Source: Elusimicrobia bacterium GWA2_51_34
GTDB lineage: Bacteria > Elusimicrobiota > Elusimicrobia > Elusimicrobiales > UBA9959
Direction: 5' to 3'
Assembly: GCA_001799565.1 (NCBI GenBank)
Contig: MGTS01000014.1
Span: forward strand, 62,001-126,000
DNA length: 64,000 nucleotides
Part shown: positions 7,099-64,000 of the stretch, one piece after another
Position numbering within the stretch: position 1 is the stretch's first letter
How the letters are laid out: each line of letters opens with the position of its first letter
The notes under the pieces: generated by a model
The model's input: the letters and a program-made list of their open reading frames with translations, nothing else
Databases searched by the model: none
What the model was told of the DNA's origin: nothing
Program-made: the position numbers and the translations under genes

Positions 7099-9084
7099 CT
7101 ACCCCTTATCTGCACATATCAAACTGTGAATATTTGTTTTTAATCCGATTTTTATATAACGGATCTTTTTTGTGAGTGTTTTTGTCGGGTAAAGGTTAAG
7201 ATTAAATGCTTTTTGAAGTGTATCGTTTATAACGGCAGGATCTTTCGACTTTAGTAAAAGATCGCGCTGGTCCATCGTAAAGTCAGGAATAGAAAACTTT
7301 GCGATATAATTCTTTGCGAGTGACATGTATCCGCTTGAATAATGCTTGCTAGTGTTTTTTATGTAGTACCAGAACACATCAGAATTTAAAATCTTTTTTA
7401 TGATTTGCAGCTGTTCTTCATCATTAATGATTATTGCATATCCACAGTAGAACATTAGGTCTTCATCTTTGCAAATAATTGCATTGGGCTTGTCGGACAT
7501 GTAAGGGATAAAAATCTTTTTCCCTTTAATGCTAAATCCCTGGGTGCGGCCAAAAGCGTACCATGTGGGATATTCTTTTTTGCCTTTATCCCTTAATGAT
7601 AGACGGGTTTTAAACACTTTTAAAAAAGCATAACAGTTGGGGAACCGGTGCGCTAAGTCCTGTTCGCCGATAACCGTAAACTTGCTGCCAGTTTTTTTGT
7701 AGGGGAATATTGCTTTTTGCTTAAAGCGTAATATGTCACTTTCTGAGTGCAGGATATTCGGTTTAATTATATCCCGGCAAATAGCCTTTTCAATTTTATA
7801 GGTTTTCCCCTCAAATACTCTGAAATAGCAACTATTGTCTGAGCCTGTTGGTTTAAAGATATAGAGCTCATTGTTTAAAGTGGCAATCCCGTTTCGTATC
7901 GGACAAAGCGCCCCCAGGGTGGCTCCCACTGATTCAATCTTTTTTAAATTCATCCAAATATCAACTGGGGCAAGTGTCCACCCGGTTTTGTCATTTAATT
8001 CACTATAGGGTATTGTGTTCCATGTTGTGTTTGTGATGGTGGTAGCGTTTTTAGGTTCTGCGTACTCTACGCCGGTGGCTATATGTTTACGAATTATGGT
8101 AACACACGTGTAGCTTAAAACACCATCAAATATCTGTTGGCCTTCAAAATTCGCAATTTTCATCTGAAATCTATTTAGACTTAAGTAACCTCTTAACGCA
8201 CGACCATTCAAACTGTGGAGATAACTATTTATTGATATATAACCCAGTGCCCCCCCAGGACGAATAAGTGTTAATCCTAGTTCAAAAAAGGGGATATAGA
8301 GATCTGGATTTCCTGTGGCGGCAGTCTCCCATTTCTTCAAAGATTTCTTAACTTTTCTGCCAATATTCTTTGCTCTTACATAGGGCGGATTTCCTATGAT
8401 TGCGTCAAATCCTCCATATCGAAACGGGGATTTAAATGTTTCCTGCCAATTTAAACTAAGCGCATCCCCAGTGCTTAAATTGAAACTGAACTCCTCTCTG
8501 TCTTCTCCATGAAGTAGCGCAACGAGAGACATTAAAAGTGCCGCGCGCTGAATATTCTGTGGCATTAAGTCTACGCCGAATAAAATATTTGAGTATATAT
8601 GGCTAAAAGGTATTTTGTGCTTGGCGTGAAGTAAGATCGCCGCCGAGATAAGGAAAGAGCCTGAGCCACAAGAGGGATCGCAGATCGTAGGAGTTCCCGC
8701 GTCGATGTTTATCGGCGGAAGGACTTGCGAAAGAATGAATTCCTTTATGGGTTTAGGAGTAAAGACAGTCCCATTCTGCCTTTTTACACCTTTTGAAATA
8801 AATTGCTCGAGGACATCTGTAAGTAAACTTTCATTTATTTCTAAAGCTAACTGGATGCAAAGCTTGTGAATTGATGCCACGAGTGTTTTTGATGTCCCTT
8901 TGATAAACAAGGAAATGGTTTTGTTTTTTATGGAGTAAATCCCATTCTCTTGAAGACACAGCATTACAAGAGCTTTCTCTATCTCTTTATGGCTTTTGGA
9001 TAGTTTGTTTAGCCCTATGATTAATTGGCGAAGTTTACTGTAGTAACTAGTCAATCTCCCTCCGATCTGTCGCACGGCCTTCAC
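7099..9084 (-). CDS. N6-adenine DNA methyltransferase, TaqI/Eco57I-like
   Basis: A 661-aa protein with S-adenosylmethionine motif I DPSCGSGSF (residues 136-144), the upstream FTPKPIKEFIL motif X region, and catalytic motif IV NPPY (232-235), typical of gamma-class N6-adenine methylases. The C-terminal half should hold the target-recognition domain. Unlike the preceding gene it has no nuclease-like N-terminal domain. Its frame overlaps the end of the 1037-aa gene by 38 bp, with GTG as the first start; a TTG at 9054 overlaps the upstream stop more tightly. The tandem arrangement suggests each methylase modifies one strand of an asymmetric site. The DNA is visibly AT-richer than the flanking housekeeping genes. 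Confidence 0.88.
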   Translation of the reverse strand: MKAVRQIGGRLTSYYSKLRQLIIGLNKLSKSHKEIEKALVMLCLQENGIYSIKNKTISLFIKGTSKTLVASIHKLCIQLALEINESLLTDVLEQFISKGVKRQNGTVFTPKPIKEFILSQVLPPINIDAGTPTICDPSCGSGSFLISAAILLHAKHKIPFSHIYSNILFGVDLMPQNIQRAALLMSLVALLHGEDREEFSFNLSTGDALSLNWQETFKSPFRYGGFDAIIGNPPYVRAKNIGRKVKKSLKKWETAATGNPDLYIPFFELGLTLIRPGGALGYISINSYLHSLNGRALRGYLSLNRFQMKIANFEGQQIFDGVLSYTCVTIIRKHIATGVEYAEPKNATTITNTTWNTIPYSELNDKTGWTLAPVDIWMNLKKIESVGATLGALCPIRNGIATLNNELYIFKPTGSDNSCYFRVFEGKTYKIEKAICRDIIKPNILHSESDILRFKQKAIFPYKKTGSKFTVIGEQDLAHRFPNCYAFLKVFKTRLSLRDKGKKEYPTWYAFGRTQGFSIKGKKIFIPYMSDKPNAIICKDEDLMFYCGYAIIINDEEQLQIIKKILNSDVFWYYIKNTSKHYSSGYMSLAKNYIAKFSIPDFTMDQRDLLLKSKDPAVINDTLQKAFNLNLYPTKTLTKKIRYIKIGLKTNIHSLICADKG

Positions 9085-12000
9085 GCTGTATTAGTGTTCG
9101 TTCGTTTTTTGTTAATTTATAAAGGTCTTCAACTAAAGTATCCAATTGTTCCCAGTAATGATTCAATAACTGCTTAAGAGGTTCTTTTTTTGATGAATGG
9201 GCGGCGATTAAATGCCTTTGAGTTCTCTCAATATTATTGGTAAGAGACGCTAAGCCATCACGTGTCGAGGAATTACTAATAAAGTTCTTCGACGGAAAAG
9301 GGATAGGCCATAAGAATTGCTTATTGAATTTAAAATGCCCACCGCTTTGTGGGTTTGCTCCAAGGCGTGCAAGTACGGAAAATGTTGTTGAATTAATAAT
9401 TGCGGCTAATGCAAGATGGGTATTCGTATCGGCATCCTCGACCTTCAAAAAATTAACATTTGCATTGTCGCAATATAACTCGCCGGTTCTGTCACAGGTG
9501 GCAAAAGTGTCTTTGGCGGTCATTGGGACAAGAACCTGACTTCCTGGTTGTCTGACCAAATTCTGCTCTCGCGTATAAGTATGCCACAAATCTTTCCCTG
9601 ATGGGGTCTCAACACTTCCTGTGATCTTTTCTTTTAATTTGCTCAAATAGCCCCCTGCATGCGGGAAGCGCTTTCTAAAAATGGAGAATGGAATAGCTTT
9701 TGATTCACCGGATTCTATATCGTAAGGAAAGATTCCAAACACATCTGGTGTGTTAGGCTTGAAGGTGTAAAACTTTTCGTTGCACATTAACGGGCGACAA
9801 GCGCTAGTCTCAATCTTCAATATATCTCTAAAACCATTAGTAGCTTCCAATATTTTGCCTGTAACGCTGTTTTGCGTGGGGCGAAGATGATAAGCCTTTA
9901 CCCATAACATTTGTAGCCCAACTCCAATATTCAATCCTAGCAGTTGTTTTAAATTTCCGATCCTGTGAAGCAGGTTGTCGCGCATTTCTATCATTTTGGG
10001 GTCGCCAAAATCCCAAGGCGCTGCTCCAAGTCTTTTTGACGGGAATATATCGTAACTTTCTGGAGAAATACTCGGGAGAGGTAGAGCTGCAAGTTGTAGG
10101 GTTAGTTCTGGCGGATCATTGGTAAGCAGATGATAATATAGATTTTCAGTTTTATCCTTCCCTAGCACTATTATAGCCACATAGGTCATCCTTCCCATGA
10201 AAACTGAGCTTGATTGGAAATCTAAAACTTGCTCAATACTTTGCATGCTGGATATTAGTTTGCGTAAATTTGCCCCATATTCTGTTTTGAAAAGCCTCTT
10301 TTGTATGATGAACCCAAGCCGGCCTGTTTTATTCAATAACTCTAAAGAGCGTTCTATGAATGGGACCGCTAGATCGACTTTCCCATCTTCGCATGTTGCA
10401 TACTGGGATTTTAAATATTCATGTGTGCTTGGGCTCCACCCTTTAAGCCACTTCACTTCTACATAGGGTGGATTACCTACTATGGCATTGAAACCAGGAT
10501 CTTTGCGGGAGAATACTGTATGGAAGGCTTTCTTATATGAGAAAGGGCGTACTAGTGTAAGTTCTTCTAGGTCTTTTTTTAAAGTAGGGACAATTTCAAA
10601 AATATTCTGTTCTACTAAAGAATTCCCATGGCGGATATTCTCCCCTATACCTAAAAGGATCATGTTGCCGTGTAAACCGATCTTTCCGTGAAGATACGGG
10701 TATCGCTCAGCATTCTCTAATACTTTAAAAGCTAGAGACATTCTTGCTACTTCGACTGCCTCAGAAGATAAATCAACGCCATAAATGCAATTTCTTATAA
10801 GCTCCCGTTTCCCTAGAACAGTGAGCAGTGTTCCCGTCTCCGATTCTGTAAACCAGTCAGCATATTCAACACTTATTTTTCTTGCTTTTTGAAGACTTAA
10901 AATCTTTTCCTCGAGAATATCGAATATTACACCTATGAATGTCCCACTGCCGCATGCTGGATCAAGCAATTTAAGGTTTAAAATGGACTCAATGTTTTCG
11001 GTTTGAAGTGCCTGCGCCAAAGTTCGTTGGCAAATTGTCCGAACGATATATTCTGGGGTGCTAACAGCTCCGCCAGCTTTTTCATATTCTGGACGTAAAA
11101 TCTCTTTTACGCTTCCCCCCTGGACGACAATCTTTTTATCCAGAAAAGTCTCATAGGTGTCCGAAAGCAGCTTTACCGGCATAACATCAAAACGATAGGG
11201 AGAGGGATAGTATAGACTTTCGATGAAGGAATGAAAAAAACTATCATCTAAAACAATTTGATCAAAGATTGATTCACCATTAAACATGGGGCCGTCGTAA
11301 TGTTTAAGGAACTCAATCCCTGAGGCTTTCTGGAATTTAGACCAAAAACCATCGCCAATAAAGCTTTTAAGAAGCCCATCTTCTTCAACGCCTTTGGATT
11401 CAGCGACGCGTATAAAAATAATTCTGTCTAAGATTACCTGAGTTAAGTAGCCAAGCTGATCTGGATCCGTTTTTAATTTATCTTTATTGCTGTTCCATAT
11501 ATGGCGTGCCAATTGAAGTCTGAACTCCGATAGCTTTTCCGCAAAATCCTGGTCTAAACTCCGTGTCCCTTTTGGTTGGGTCTCTTTTGCGAAACGGAAT
11601 TCAAGGTTTCCATTCTGAACCTTTTCGCACAAGAGCAGATCTTCAAGGTGATCATAATTGGAGAGGTATTGGTCAAGGCTCCAAAAAAATGGTCTCGCAT
11701 TATCTGCGCTGTCTTTTCGCTTGGGTTTGAAGCGACAGTCATAAACGGCGAATTCTTTAAAATTGGTTAAAAAAGAGCAGGGAAGACCTTTTGACCATCC
11801 ATAAGAGCGAATTTGAAACGCAGAATCCTTATCGGCACTAATATCAAGTGCGATTCTTTTGGCATCAATAAATGCAAGAGTCTTTTTTCCACTCATAAGA
11901 GCGTAATCCGGAATATTATGCCCAGAATCAATCTCAGCGAGCTTCTTCTTCTCTCGACTTGATAACTTTTTCCCTTGATGTACTTGTGCAGGATCCATTG

Positions 12001-12160
12001 TGTCCCAGCCGAATATATTTAAAAGTTCATTAATCCAAGACCGGGCAGTATCCTCCGATGATTCATCGAGTTCATCTTTTTTAGAGAAGGCCTGATATTT
12101 TCCAATAAGCTTCTTAAGGTTATCTTTTCGTGTCTGTTTTTCTTGTTCTCTAGTGGCCAT
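9047..12160 (-). CDS. Type IIG-like restriction enzyme/methyltransferase fusion
   Basis: A 1037-aa protein combining nuclease, methylase and specificity regions. An N-terminal PD-(D/E)xK-like signature (PDYAL at residues 84-88, FIDAK at 97-101) precedes a helical linker, methylase motif I DPACGSGTF at 400-408, GVDLSSEAVEVAR at 461-473 and catalytic NPPY at 563-566. The remaining 450 residues form the target-recognition region with a helical C-terminus. Such single-chain enzymes cut at a distance from a site they methylate on one strand. It is the first gene of the five-gene leftward operon, with CAGGA 6 bp before the ATG. Sequence specificity cannot be read from the sequence. Confidence 0.88.
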   Translation of the reverse strand: MATREQEKQTRKDNLKKLIGKYQAFSKKDELDESSEDTARSWINELLNIFGWDTMDPAQVHQGKKLSSREKKKLAEIDSGHNIPDYALMSGKKTLAFIDAKRIALDISADKDSAFQIRSYGWSKGLPCSFLTNFKEFAVYDCRFKPKRKDSADNARPFFWSLDQYLSNYDHLEDLLLCEKVQNGNLEFRFAKETQPKGTRSLDQDFAEKLSEFRLQLARHIWNSNKDKLKTDPDQLGYLTQVILDRIIFIRVAESKGVEEDGLLKSFIGDGFWSKFQKASGIEFLKHYDGPMFNGESIFDQIVLDDSFFHSFIESLYYPSPYRFDVMPVKLLSDTYETFLDKKIVVQGGSVKEILRPEYEKAGGAVSTPEYIVRTICQRTLAQALQTENIESILNLKLLDPACGSGTFIGVIFDILEEKILSLQKARKISVEYADWFTESETGTLLTVLGKRELIRNCIYGVDLSSEAVEVARMSLAFKVLENAERYPYLHGKIGLHGNMILLGIGENIRHGNSLVEQNIFEIVPTLKKDLEELTLVRPFSYKKAFHTVFSRKDPGFNAIVGNPPYVEVKWLKGWSPSTHEYLKSQYATCEDGKVDLAVPFIERSLELLNKTGRLGFIIQKRLFKTEYGANLRKLISSMQSIEQVLDFQSSSVFMGRMTYVAIIVLGKDKTENLYYHLLTNDPPELTLQLAALPLPSISPESYDIFPSKRLGAAPWDFGDPKMIEMRDNLLHRIGNLKQLLGLNIGVGLQMLWVKAYHLRPTQNSVTGKILEATNGFRDILKIETSACRPLMCNEKFYTFKPNTPDVFGIFPYDIESGESKAIPFSIFRKRFPHAGGYLSKLKEKITGSVETPSGKDLWHTYTREQNLVRQPGSQVLVPMTAKDTFATCDRTGELYCDNANVNFLKVEDADTNTHLALAAIINSTTFSVLARLGANPQSGGHFKFNKQFLWPIPFPSKNFISNSSTRDGLASLTNNIERTQRHLIAAHSSKKEPLKQLLNHYWEQLDTLVEDLYKLTKNERTLIQREGRATDRREID

Positions 12161-12375
12161 GAATAATCCTGCCCCCTACAAAAGTGATCTTTAAAAGCGC
12201 CTAGGTAAATTAAAAAATACTGAGAAAATCTGCTTATTTCGTATATGATACTACTTTTACTGTTCAGCCGTCTTTTACCTGTTTTGCGAGCAAGAAATAT
12301 ATAAAGTTGCAAAATAAATCGACGCATAAACATTCACGGCTTATATCCGGATGCGCTCGGTTCGGTACAAATATC

Positions 12376-12426
12376 ATAGCAGACCAACGCGACAACGTCA
12401 TGTCGCGTTGGGAAAGAGTCTTTTTG
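12376..12426. repeat. Hairpin repeat, copy 1
   Basis: A perfect 10-bp stem (CAACGCGACA at 12385-12394 with TGTCGCGTTG at 12401-12410) and 6-nt loop, embedded in about 50 bp that recur at 62507-62557. It lies upstream of the restriction operon and directly abuts the 285-bp inverted-repeat element. The rest of the gap from 12161 to 12375 shows AT-rich promoter-like DNA but no clear -35/-10 pair. Confidence 0.8.
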
Positions 12427-12711
12427 CACAGCTGTCCGGGGAAAGTTTTAAACTGGGGTGGGGTGTAAACCGAGTCGGACCTCAGAATAGGCCAAATCCC
12501 CTATGAAAAGCGATTTTTTGACTGTTTTGATGTGCTGTCCGGAAAAGCAGTGAAAACGGGATTCTCAGAATCATGTCCAGATTGGAGGGTAGAGAGCGTA
12601 AATTGGTGTTTTAGATAGCAAAGACGCTGGTTTCCGACGGGGAATACGTCTTAATACAGTAGTCTAAACGCCGATTTTGTGATTGCGGCCAACTTTCCCC
12701 GGACAGCTGTG
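12427..12711. mobile_element. 285-bp MITE-like element with perfect 21-bp terminal inverted repeats
   Basis: The ends are exact inverted repeats: 12427-12447, beginning CACAGCTGTCCGGGG, and 12691-12711. A degenerate internal version (CTGTCCGGAAAAGCAG) lies at about 12533. There is no open frame of useful length inside. The size and perfect ends suggest a non-autonomous transposon-derived element. No target-site duplication is obvious because the flanks contain other repeats. Confidence 0.7.
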
Positions 12712-12780
12712 TGTTTTTGGGATTTTGAGTTAAAAAATGGGCGGATAAGACTCCGTCCGCCTTAAACAGGCGGACGGAGT
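12709..12780. repeat. 72-bp hairpin-bearing direct repeat, copy 1
   Basis: Contains an 11-bp perfect stem (CTCCGTCCGCC at 12751-12761, GGCGGACGGAG at 12769-12779) preceded by GATTTTGAGTT. A nearly identical 72-bp copy in the same orientation lies at 14845-14916, on the other side of the CPBP and hydrolase genes. It could also terminate transcription, but no T-run follows. Confidence 0.85.
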
Positions 12781-62506: not shown

Positions 62507-62557
62507 ATAGCAGATGAACGCGACAACGGTCTGTCGCGTTGGGAAAGGCTGTTTTTA
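62507..62557. repeat. Hairpin repeat, copy 2
   Basis: Nine-bp stem AACGCGACA/TGTCGCGTT (62517-62525, 62532-62540) within about 50 bp matching 12376-12426. It marks the edge of the second AT-rich patch. The rest of the gap 62214-62632 shows no gene. Confidence 0.8.
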
Positions 62558-62632: not shown

Positions 62633-64000
62633 CTATCTCCGCCTTCCCCTGCCACGGCCGGGACCGTGTTTCCTGTTGTCCCGGCGGGAGACCTGCCAGC
62701 GCGCTTCGGGCGGGATATTGGCCTGTTGCGCGGAGGAAGACAGGTCTATCTGCCCTTTGGCGGCGTCTACCGCGGTTATTGTCACGCTTATCTTCGCGCC
62801 GGGTTTCAGCCTTGCTCCGCGCAGCAACCCCTCGGCGCCCGTGTCGCCAAGGCGCACAAAAGCGCCGCTTTCGGTAACGGCTGTTACGGTGCCGTTCATC
62901 ACTGAGCCTATCCTGGATTTGAATAATTCCGCGCGCAGTATGTCCACGGCCTTATGTTCCGCCTCCGCCGCCGCGCGCTCGCGCTCAGAGCAATGCACGC
63001 CCGCTTTATCAAGCGTAAGACTGCCGTGGTTTTCCCTTTTGCCGAACAGCAGCGCTGTTACGGCGCGGTGAGTCATCAGATCCGGATACCTGCGGATGGG
63101 CGAGGTGAAATGGGAATAGGCCCTTGCGGCTATGCCGAAATGCCCGGAAGATTGCGGAGAGTAAACAGCCTGCCGCATACTGCGCACTATGAGGGAATTG
63201 ATTATATCTTCAAGCGGGTTACCCTGCGCCTGGCACAGCACTTCCTGCAAACCTTTGTGCGTATTTCCGCCCAGGATGTGTCCCGCCGACAAGCCCATGT
63301 CGCCCAGCGTCTCCGCCAGCGCTTTAAGTTTCTTCGGGTCCGGCGCGTCGTGGCGGCGGTGCAAAAACGGCATTTTCGCGGCCATAAGTTCGGTAGCAAC
63401 CGATTCGTTCGCGAGCAGCATGAATTCCTCTATAAGGCGGTGGCTCTGAAGCCTCGGGCGGAGCACTACGCGAAGCGGCCGGCCTTGCGCGTCCGTTTCA
63501 ATTTTATATTCGGGAAGATTAAAGTCCAGCGCCCCGCGCTTTACCCTGACCTTGTAGAGAACGGCGGCAAGCTCGCCCATGCGCGTAACGGCTTCTTCCG
63601 CGGCCCTGGGCACCGCGCCTACCTTTTGCCCGTCAAGCAGCGATTGCACTTCCTCGTAGGTGAAACGCCGGCAGGAACGGATGACGGTTTGCGCGAGGCG
63701 CCGCCGCGTAACCTTCCCGGCGGTGTTGATGTCCATAAAGGCGGACAGCGTAAGCCGGGGCTGCCCCGGCACGAGGCTGCATAAATTATTTGAAAGCGCG
63801 GGCGGCAGCATGGGCACAACCCTGTCGGGCAAATACACGCTGGTTCCGCGCAGGTACGCCTCTTTATCAAGGGCGGATCCCGTTTTTACGTAATGCCCCA
63901 CATCCGCGATATGCACGCCAAGGCGCACCATGTCCCCGCCTAAGCGCTCAAGCGATACCGCGTCGTCAAAATCCTTGGCATCGGCTCCGTCTATAGTCAC
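62633..64000 (-). CDS. rnr: Ribonuclease R (5' end outside window)
   Basis: C-terminal 455 residues of an RNase R/II-family 3'-5' exoribonuclease: catalytic DGADAKDFDDAVSL at residues ~4-17 of the visible part, the RNB core with YLPDRVVPMLPPALSNNLCS and SHFTSPIRRYPDLMTHRAV, an S1 domain (SVMNGTVTAVTESGAFVRLG) and a basic Arg/Gly tail ending GPGRGRGRRR. The cold-shock and N-terminal part lie beyond 64000. Confidence 0.93.
   Translation of the reverse strand: MTIDGADAKDFDDAVSLERLGGDMVRLGVHIADVGHYVKTGSALDKEAYLRGTSVYLPDRVVPMLPPALSNNLCSLVPGQPRLTLSAFMDINTAGKVTRRRLAQTVIRSCRRFTYEEVQSLLDGQKVGAVPRAAEEAVTRMGELAAVLYKVRVKRGALDFNLPEYKIETDAQGRPLRVVLRPRLQSHRLIEEFMLLANESVATELMAAKMPFLHRRHDAPDPKKLKALAETLGDMGLSAGHILGGNTHKGLQEVLCQAQGNPLEDIINSLIVRSMRQAVYSPQSSGHFGIAARAYSHFTSPIRRYPDLMTHRAVTALLFGKRENHGSLTLDKAGVHCSERERAAAEAEHKAVDILRAELFKSRIGSVMNGTVTAVTESGAFVRLGDTGAEGLLRGARLKPGAKISVTITAVDAAKGQIDLSSSAQQANIPPEARWQVSRRDNRKHGPGRGRGRRR

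Follow-up and report, generated by a model that had tools for sequence, protein, structure and literature searches.

The 285-bp element at positions 12427..12711 of the window, the stretch of 64,000 nucleotides analysed here, belongs to a family of non-autonomous transposons (MITEs) whose insertions lie, in nine of 14 known cases, at one fixed spacing from an exact palindromic box that is also found upstream of recA. We consider it probable (roughly 0.78) that these MITEs are moved by an IS4-family DDE transposase, and that in this bacterial family their insertion is directed by the CGACA-N6-TGTCG operator of a regulon with recA among its members. In the proposed mechanism, the transposase would dock on the operator DNA or on an operator-bound protein and make its near cut 13 bp outside the box; counted from the dyad centre, the cut would fall at 21 bp, or about two turns of the helix. 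The MITE would come to lie beyond the box as seen from the gene, its GTTTTAAAC end facing the box, in front of genes for repair, restriction, CRISPR and mobile elements.

The anatomy of the window copy, established by repeat scan, genome BLAST and copy alignment, is that of a MITE. An earlier note on this DNA described a MITE-like segment with perfect 21-bp inverted ends and no gene, and this description holds: the two arms (CACAGCTGTCCGGGGAAAGTT; 12427-12447 and 12691-12711) are 21 nt long, 100% complementary and separated by 243 nt, and the longest reading frame between stops has 49 codons. Comparison of the flanks reveals an 8-bp target duplication with one mismatch, TCTTTTTG on the left (12419..12426) and TGTTTTTG on the right (12712..12719). 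Because this duplication lies directly at both ends of the element, the MITE inserted alone, and the suggestion in the same note that it might be the scar by which a genomic island arrived must be abandoned. Taken with its multiple copies, its terminal inverted repeats and an IS4-family partner that shares its ends (see below), the duplication supports assignment of the element as a non-autonomous transposon.

Additional copies, which the earlier note had proposed to look for, came up in a BLAST search of the entire home genome (43 contigs totalling 2.63 Mb). Matches in nine places resolve, after each was read, into seven insertions, two of which were reconstructed from pairs of contig ends with a target duplication in common. 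Four copies are complete and internal (the window copy, C42, C21 at 25366, here called C21a, and C24); two are broken at contig ends, with halves that share a duplication (C37|C36, AAAATTTC; C27|C21, GGGGCATAA); and one (C21:211232, called C21b) consists of a left end alone, truncated at about 80 bp and without a right end. Apart from the window copy, the complete copies of the home genome measure 287 bp and are near-identical to one another, with 77% identity to the window copy. Across nine complete copies of the family, the length is 285-288 bp.

Seven further genomes of this bacterial family carry a single relative of the MITE each, which brings the known insertions to 14. Genomes G002, G004, G016 and G021 carry one each (five of 61 relatives have a match, the home genome counted), and a search of 340 genomes across the phylum added G153, G156 and G157 (nine of 340 with a match, the home genome again counted). 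The phylum-wide search scored two candidates per genome and could have missed extra copies, a gap partly covered by a search for the end pattern in 59 genomes of the family, which gave matches in nine. Four further end-pattern matches in G004 and the one in G024 proved to be coding DNA and were rejected as MITEs, and the sole match in G166 is a 35-base end that belongs to an insertion sequence (IS) rather than to a MITE. In the named GTDB collection, the matches include six Elusimicrobia contigs, several of them already known insertions; those in Leptolinea, Chitinophagales and Spirochaetales involve one end only. Searches of three collections, of plasmids, phages and viral contigs, were all negative.

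Target duplications in the family span 8-10 bp overall, and several are T-rich. They are perfect, at 8-9 bp, at eight insertions (C42, C21a, C24, C27/C21 and C37/C36 in the home genome; G002, G153 and G156), contain one mismatch in the window and in G021, contain two in G016, and are not scorable at G004, G157 and C21b. These duplications, together with the unrelated genomic neighbours of the copies, refute the main point of a different reading, in which the segment would be an immobile structured RNA or regulatory region. That reading draws on the fold z-score of the whole element (-5.9) and on a mean column identity of 86% over the nine aligned copies. The stability of the fold, however, comes largely from the inverted ends, with z-scores of +0.39 and -1.78 for the two interior halves; double changes occur in just three of 69 consensus pairs, and Rfam returns no match. 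The earlier note had reserved the RNA interpretation for an element that was unique and conserved with its flanking genes. Considering that the element is instead multicopy and lies beside different genes, we regard a structured RNA as most improbable.

The exact box next to the window copy, located by pattern search at 12390..12405, forms the core of a 28-bp perfect palindrome with 11-bp arms (12384-12411). It overlaps the -35 region of a sigma-70-type promoter on the minus strand (12373..12401; ATGACG, a spacing of 17, TATGAT, with TG before the -10), predicted by consensus match only, which reads into a restriction operon. By family match, the first large gene of this operon (9047..12160, minus strand) encodes a 1037-aa Eco57I-type restriction-modification protein, and the second (7099..9084, minus strand) a 661-aa Eco57I/N6-methylase-type protein. 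The MITE was correctly placed in the earlier note just upstream of the restriction operon promoter, and the two other repeats reported alongside are the palindromic operator and a GC-rich stem-loop at 12750-12780. Disruption of a promoter, which the note had also entertained, does not fit, since the predicted promoter is left whole between the MITE and the restriction genes. We rejected an interpretation of the palindrome as a hairpin or terminator: the terminator scan was empty there, and the conserved flank corresponds to the extended -10 of the opposite-strand promoter. The stem-loop to the right of the MITE has a 13-bp perfect stem (ACTCCGTCCGCCT) and a loop of 5, and the terminator scan makes no terminator call on it. 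In six of the seven home-genome insertions the MITE adjoins CGACA-N6-TGTCG followed by a TGCTATACTAT-like sequence on the opposite strand. We take the box to be a putative regulator-binding site.

The spacing between box and insertion is constant wherever the box is exact. An exact box accompanies nine of the 14 insertions (the window copy, C42, C24, C27/C21, C37/C36 and C21b in the home genome; G002, G021 and G156), and in all nine the spacer between box and target duplication is 13 bp (12406..12418 in the window), which puts the dyad centre 21 bp from the duplication's near edge. Box and element are 21, 22 or 23 bp apart where the duplication measures 8, 9 or 10 bp, respectively; the duplication of G021 can be read as 10 bp or as 9 plus one base. 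Copy C21b lacks its right end, yet its distance from the box is also 21 bp. In all nine the box separates the MITE from the gene, and it is always the GTTTTAAAC end that faces the box, an orientation with a two-sided p of 0.004 against random orientation. By simple arithmetic, the chance that six of the seven home-genome insertions would fall within 80 bp of any of the genome's 24 boxes is 6.8e-17; restricting the insertions to a tenth of the genome raises it to 6.7e-11. Because the box was first noticed at MITE sites, the more independent evidence is its conservation at recA and its recurrence in other genomes, and the ruler rests on a small sample of 14 insertions. The genes behind the MITE-linked boxes encode a restriction enzyme, two DUF1016/YhcG nucleases, a methylase operon, an exonuclease, a Y1 transposase, a Dam-like methylase and others; since these genes differ, the insertions are separate events. 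The remaining insertions depart from the rule: four of 14 (C21a, G004, G016 and G157) have no box within 80 bp, and that of G153 lies 7 bp from a degenerate box (one mismatch), with the opposite end facing it.

Does the fixed spacing reflect the choice of target, or the survival of insertions that happened to be tolerated? IS5 insertions upstream of glpFK or bgl alter expression in E. coli. An ordinary MITE with a loose preference might likewise be retained 50-60 bp upstream of the promoters concerned because insertion there is harmless or usefully changes the expression of defence and repair genes. All of the insertions do lie on the side that spares the promoter, and an insertion 13 bp beyond the opposite edge of the box would fall within the -10 region. 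The available part of one report (PMC4117983) offers a parallel in IS5 at glpFK of E. coli: the insertions share a single position and a single orientation ahead of a promoter under repressor control, and GlpR bound to its operators lowers the rate of hopping. The parallel is incomplete, in that the IS5 case concerns one operon, a CTAA target and selected mutants, and repressor binding there affects transposition by inhibiting it. Selection would not obviously be expected to hold the near cut to a single base pair across nine different promoters from four genomes, or to make the element's distance grow by one as the duplication grows by one, and among the 14 insertions there is no comparable cluster at promoters that lack a box. 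We therefore think selection an unlikely source of the ruler, though the loss of promoter-destroying insertions could account for its one-sidedness. Target choice appears to set the 13-bp spacing, and the pattern fits insertion machinery that measures from the operator.

The reading of the box as an operator draws on its distribution. A wider box pattern finds 24 sites in the home genome, compared with one for a reversed control pattern. The genes behind these boxes include recA, radC, three of DUF1016 type, Cas3, an Eco57I-type restriction enzyme and a cytosine methylase operon, as well as genes for an MTES_1575/DUF559-type nuclease, a DnaQ-like exonuclease, three Y1 transposases, an IS91-type transposase, four ORF6N proteins, an NYN protein and a DnaJ protein; some of the genes behind boxes have no family match. 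Among the recA matches listed, 30 loci were fetched and 25 scored, the motif not being found in the five left unscored; an exact box lies 5' of recA in 20 of the 25, across many genera, and a stricter motif filter showed 10 of 30. Because the box is conserved at recA and repair-type genes are among those behind its other copies, we read it as the probable operator of a DNA-damage-type regulon to which recA belongs. The distribution suggests that a recA-type operator with a TGCTATACTAT-like -10 may control repair, defence and mobile genes alike.

The box resembles LexA/SOS boxes in that both are palindromic operators at the promoters of recA and other DNA-damage-type genes (here radC in the home genome) and are kept across genera. 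The difference is that profile searches of the home genome detect neither LexA_DNA_bind (PF01726) nor Peptidase_S24 (PF00717), each of which was positive in 10 of 14 named control genomes, and for that reason the name LexA box would be too strong. No LexA motif for Elusimicrobia was found in the open-access literature searched. Within the window, a second box without a MITE (62521..62536) precedes a 71-aa reading frame and a DnaJ-domain gene. A third exact CGACA-N6-TGTCG, at 63287-63302, lacks the ATAGCAG flank and may be a chance occurrence.

The ends of the MITE point to a candidate motor. The same ends occur on an IS of the Olavius Gamma 3 endosymbiont (loci include L052, L054, L060, L066-L068 and L072) whose transposase matches NF033592 (IS4 family), DDE_Tnp_1 and DUF4372, and relatives of this transposase are encoded in 28 of the 340 genomes of the phylum. 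The best of them is in G166, a genome from a different family in the phylum. It is carried by an IS of 1287 bp, the left end of which is identical to the MITE end at 21 of 21 bases; the IS ends of G016 and G153 agree at 17-19 of 21. The transposases of all three score 260-265 bits against NF033592, for which the cut-off is 115. A transposase with the same ends, which the earlier note had proposed to look for, exists in the IS of G166; in the home genome, searches detect neither relatives of the Olavius-type transposase nor PF01609. The shared ends make an IS4-family DDE transposase the candidate motor. The MITE resembles IS4-family elements (NCBIfam NF033592; Pfam DUF4372 plus DDE_Tnp_1) in its terminal sequence and its 8-10 bp duplications, and differs in that the window copy carries no transposase and its interior is untraceable to the IS compared. 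Derivation of the interior from an IS by deletion was considered and rejected: local alignments of six interiors with six IS gave nothing distinct from shuffled sequence, and in only two of the 36 comparisons did the score pass the best of 60 shuffles, by margins of 1 and 3 points.

If the transposase measures from the operator, it could recognize either the DNA or a protein bound to it. The palindrome or its A/T-rich neighbourhood might be read as bare DNA, with no role for a repressor, in the manner of IS that target REP palindromes. Such IS are known: the accessible part of Tobes and Pareja (2006, PMC1525189) describes ISRm22, ISPpu9 and ISPa11, and has all copies of the IS4-family ISRm22 in REP elements. 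The Olavius Gamma 3 IS with MITE-like ends is itself found inside a REP-like palindrome, GATCCCCGC-TTGC-GCGGGGAT, at 14 of 18 left-end flanks counted by eye, and the T-rich duplications noted above point the same way. As in the REP systems (PMC1525189, as far as its available text goes), a repeated palindrome marks the landing site; here, however, the palindrome is a promoter operator shared with recA, and the MITEs lie not inside it but at a fixed distance outside, in one orientation and on one side only of a symmetric box. By our own reasoning, moreover, the spacing of the box half-sites is mismatched to the position of TGTCC in the MITE ends. Recognition of bare DNA is quite possible, though we would stop short of betting on it. 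Since the box is symmetric whereas the insertions are one-sided and outside it, we lean slightly towards a contribution from a bound protein. The more specific proposal, that the docking factor would be the operator-bound repressor of a DNA-damage-type regulon and the MITE would place itself two helical turns from the dyad, is tentative, and we hold it to be somewhat doubtful.

The full-length IS of the phylum with similar ends whose flanks were read show no sign of this targeting. No box was seen by eye in either flank of the IS of G166, G016 and G153, or in the left flank of those of G238 and G007, whose right flank is cut by a contig end. The specificity may therefore belong to one particular transposase outside those examined, or may be chance in a handful of sites.

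Should the proposed mechanism be correct, the target choice of a DDE transposon would be tied to a regulatory operator with base-pair precision, providing a simple system for how a transposase reads a bound repressor or a palindrome. In the open-access literature searched, no transposon guided by a LexA/SOS-type operator was found; targeting of palindromes by IS is already known (PMC1525189, in the part available), and the literature searched yielded no case of a regulatory operator serving as a ruler. The mechanism would also bring to light a conserved operator shared by recA, defence and mobile genes, in a genome where no LexA is detected and in a phylum whose DNA-damage regulon is apparently undescribed in that literature; MITE positions may serve as markers of this box regulon. 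The yeast elements Ty1 and Ty3 occupy 'safe' sites at fixed distances upstream of Pol III genes, these retroelements being guided by transcription factors. If the docking factor were the bound repressor, the family described here would parallel, in a bacterium, the guidance of Ty elements by proteins at promoters, alike in its fixed position upstream of a class of promoters and different in being a bacterial DDE MITE rather than a retroelement. The window MITE takes the place of the sequence that begins some 60 bp ahead of the presumed start, and an effect on expression is possible by analogy with IS5 at glpFK (PMC4117983, available part).

Several individual copies have features of their own. 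The first 58 bases of the window copy (12427-12484) are 98% identical to the C42 copy and later blocks 62-84%; the window MITE is perhaps a mosaic, with a left end shaped by gene conversion or constraint. The copy at C21:25366-25652 (L003), which has no box, interrupts a short reading frame and has a 9-bp perfect duplication; judged by eye, the interrupted product resembles what we take to be DnaA domain IV. Finally, the truncated copy on C21 is adjoined, to the right of 211311 (L007), by a palindrome, GGTGACACACAACTTAATT...AATTAAGTTGTGTGTCACC, which has a similar counterpart close to a Y1-transposase gene (near L087). These palindromes are perhaps REP elements of that Y1 transposase.
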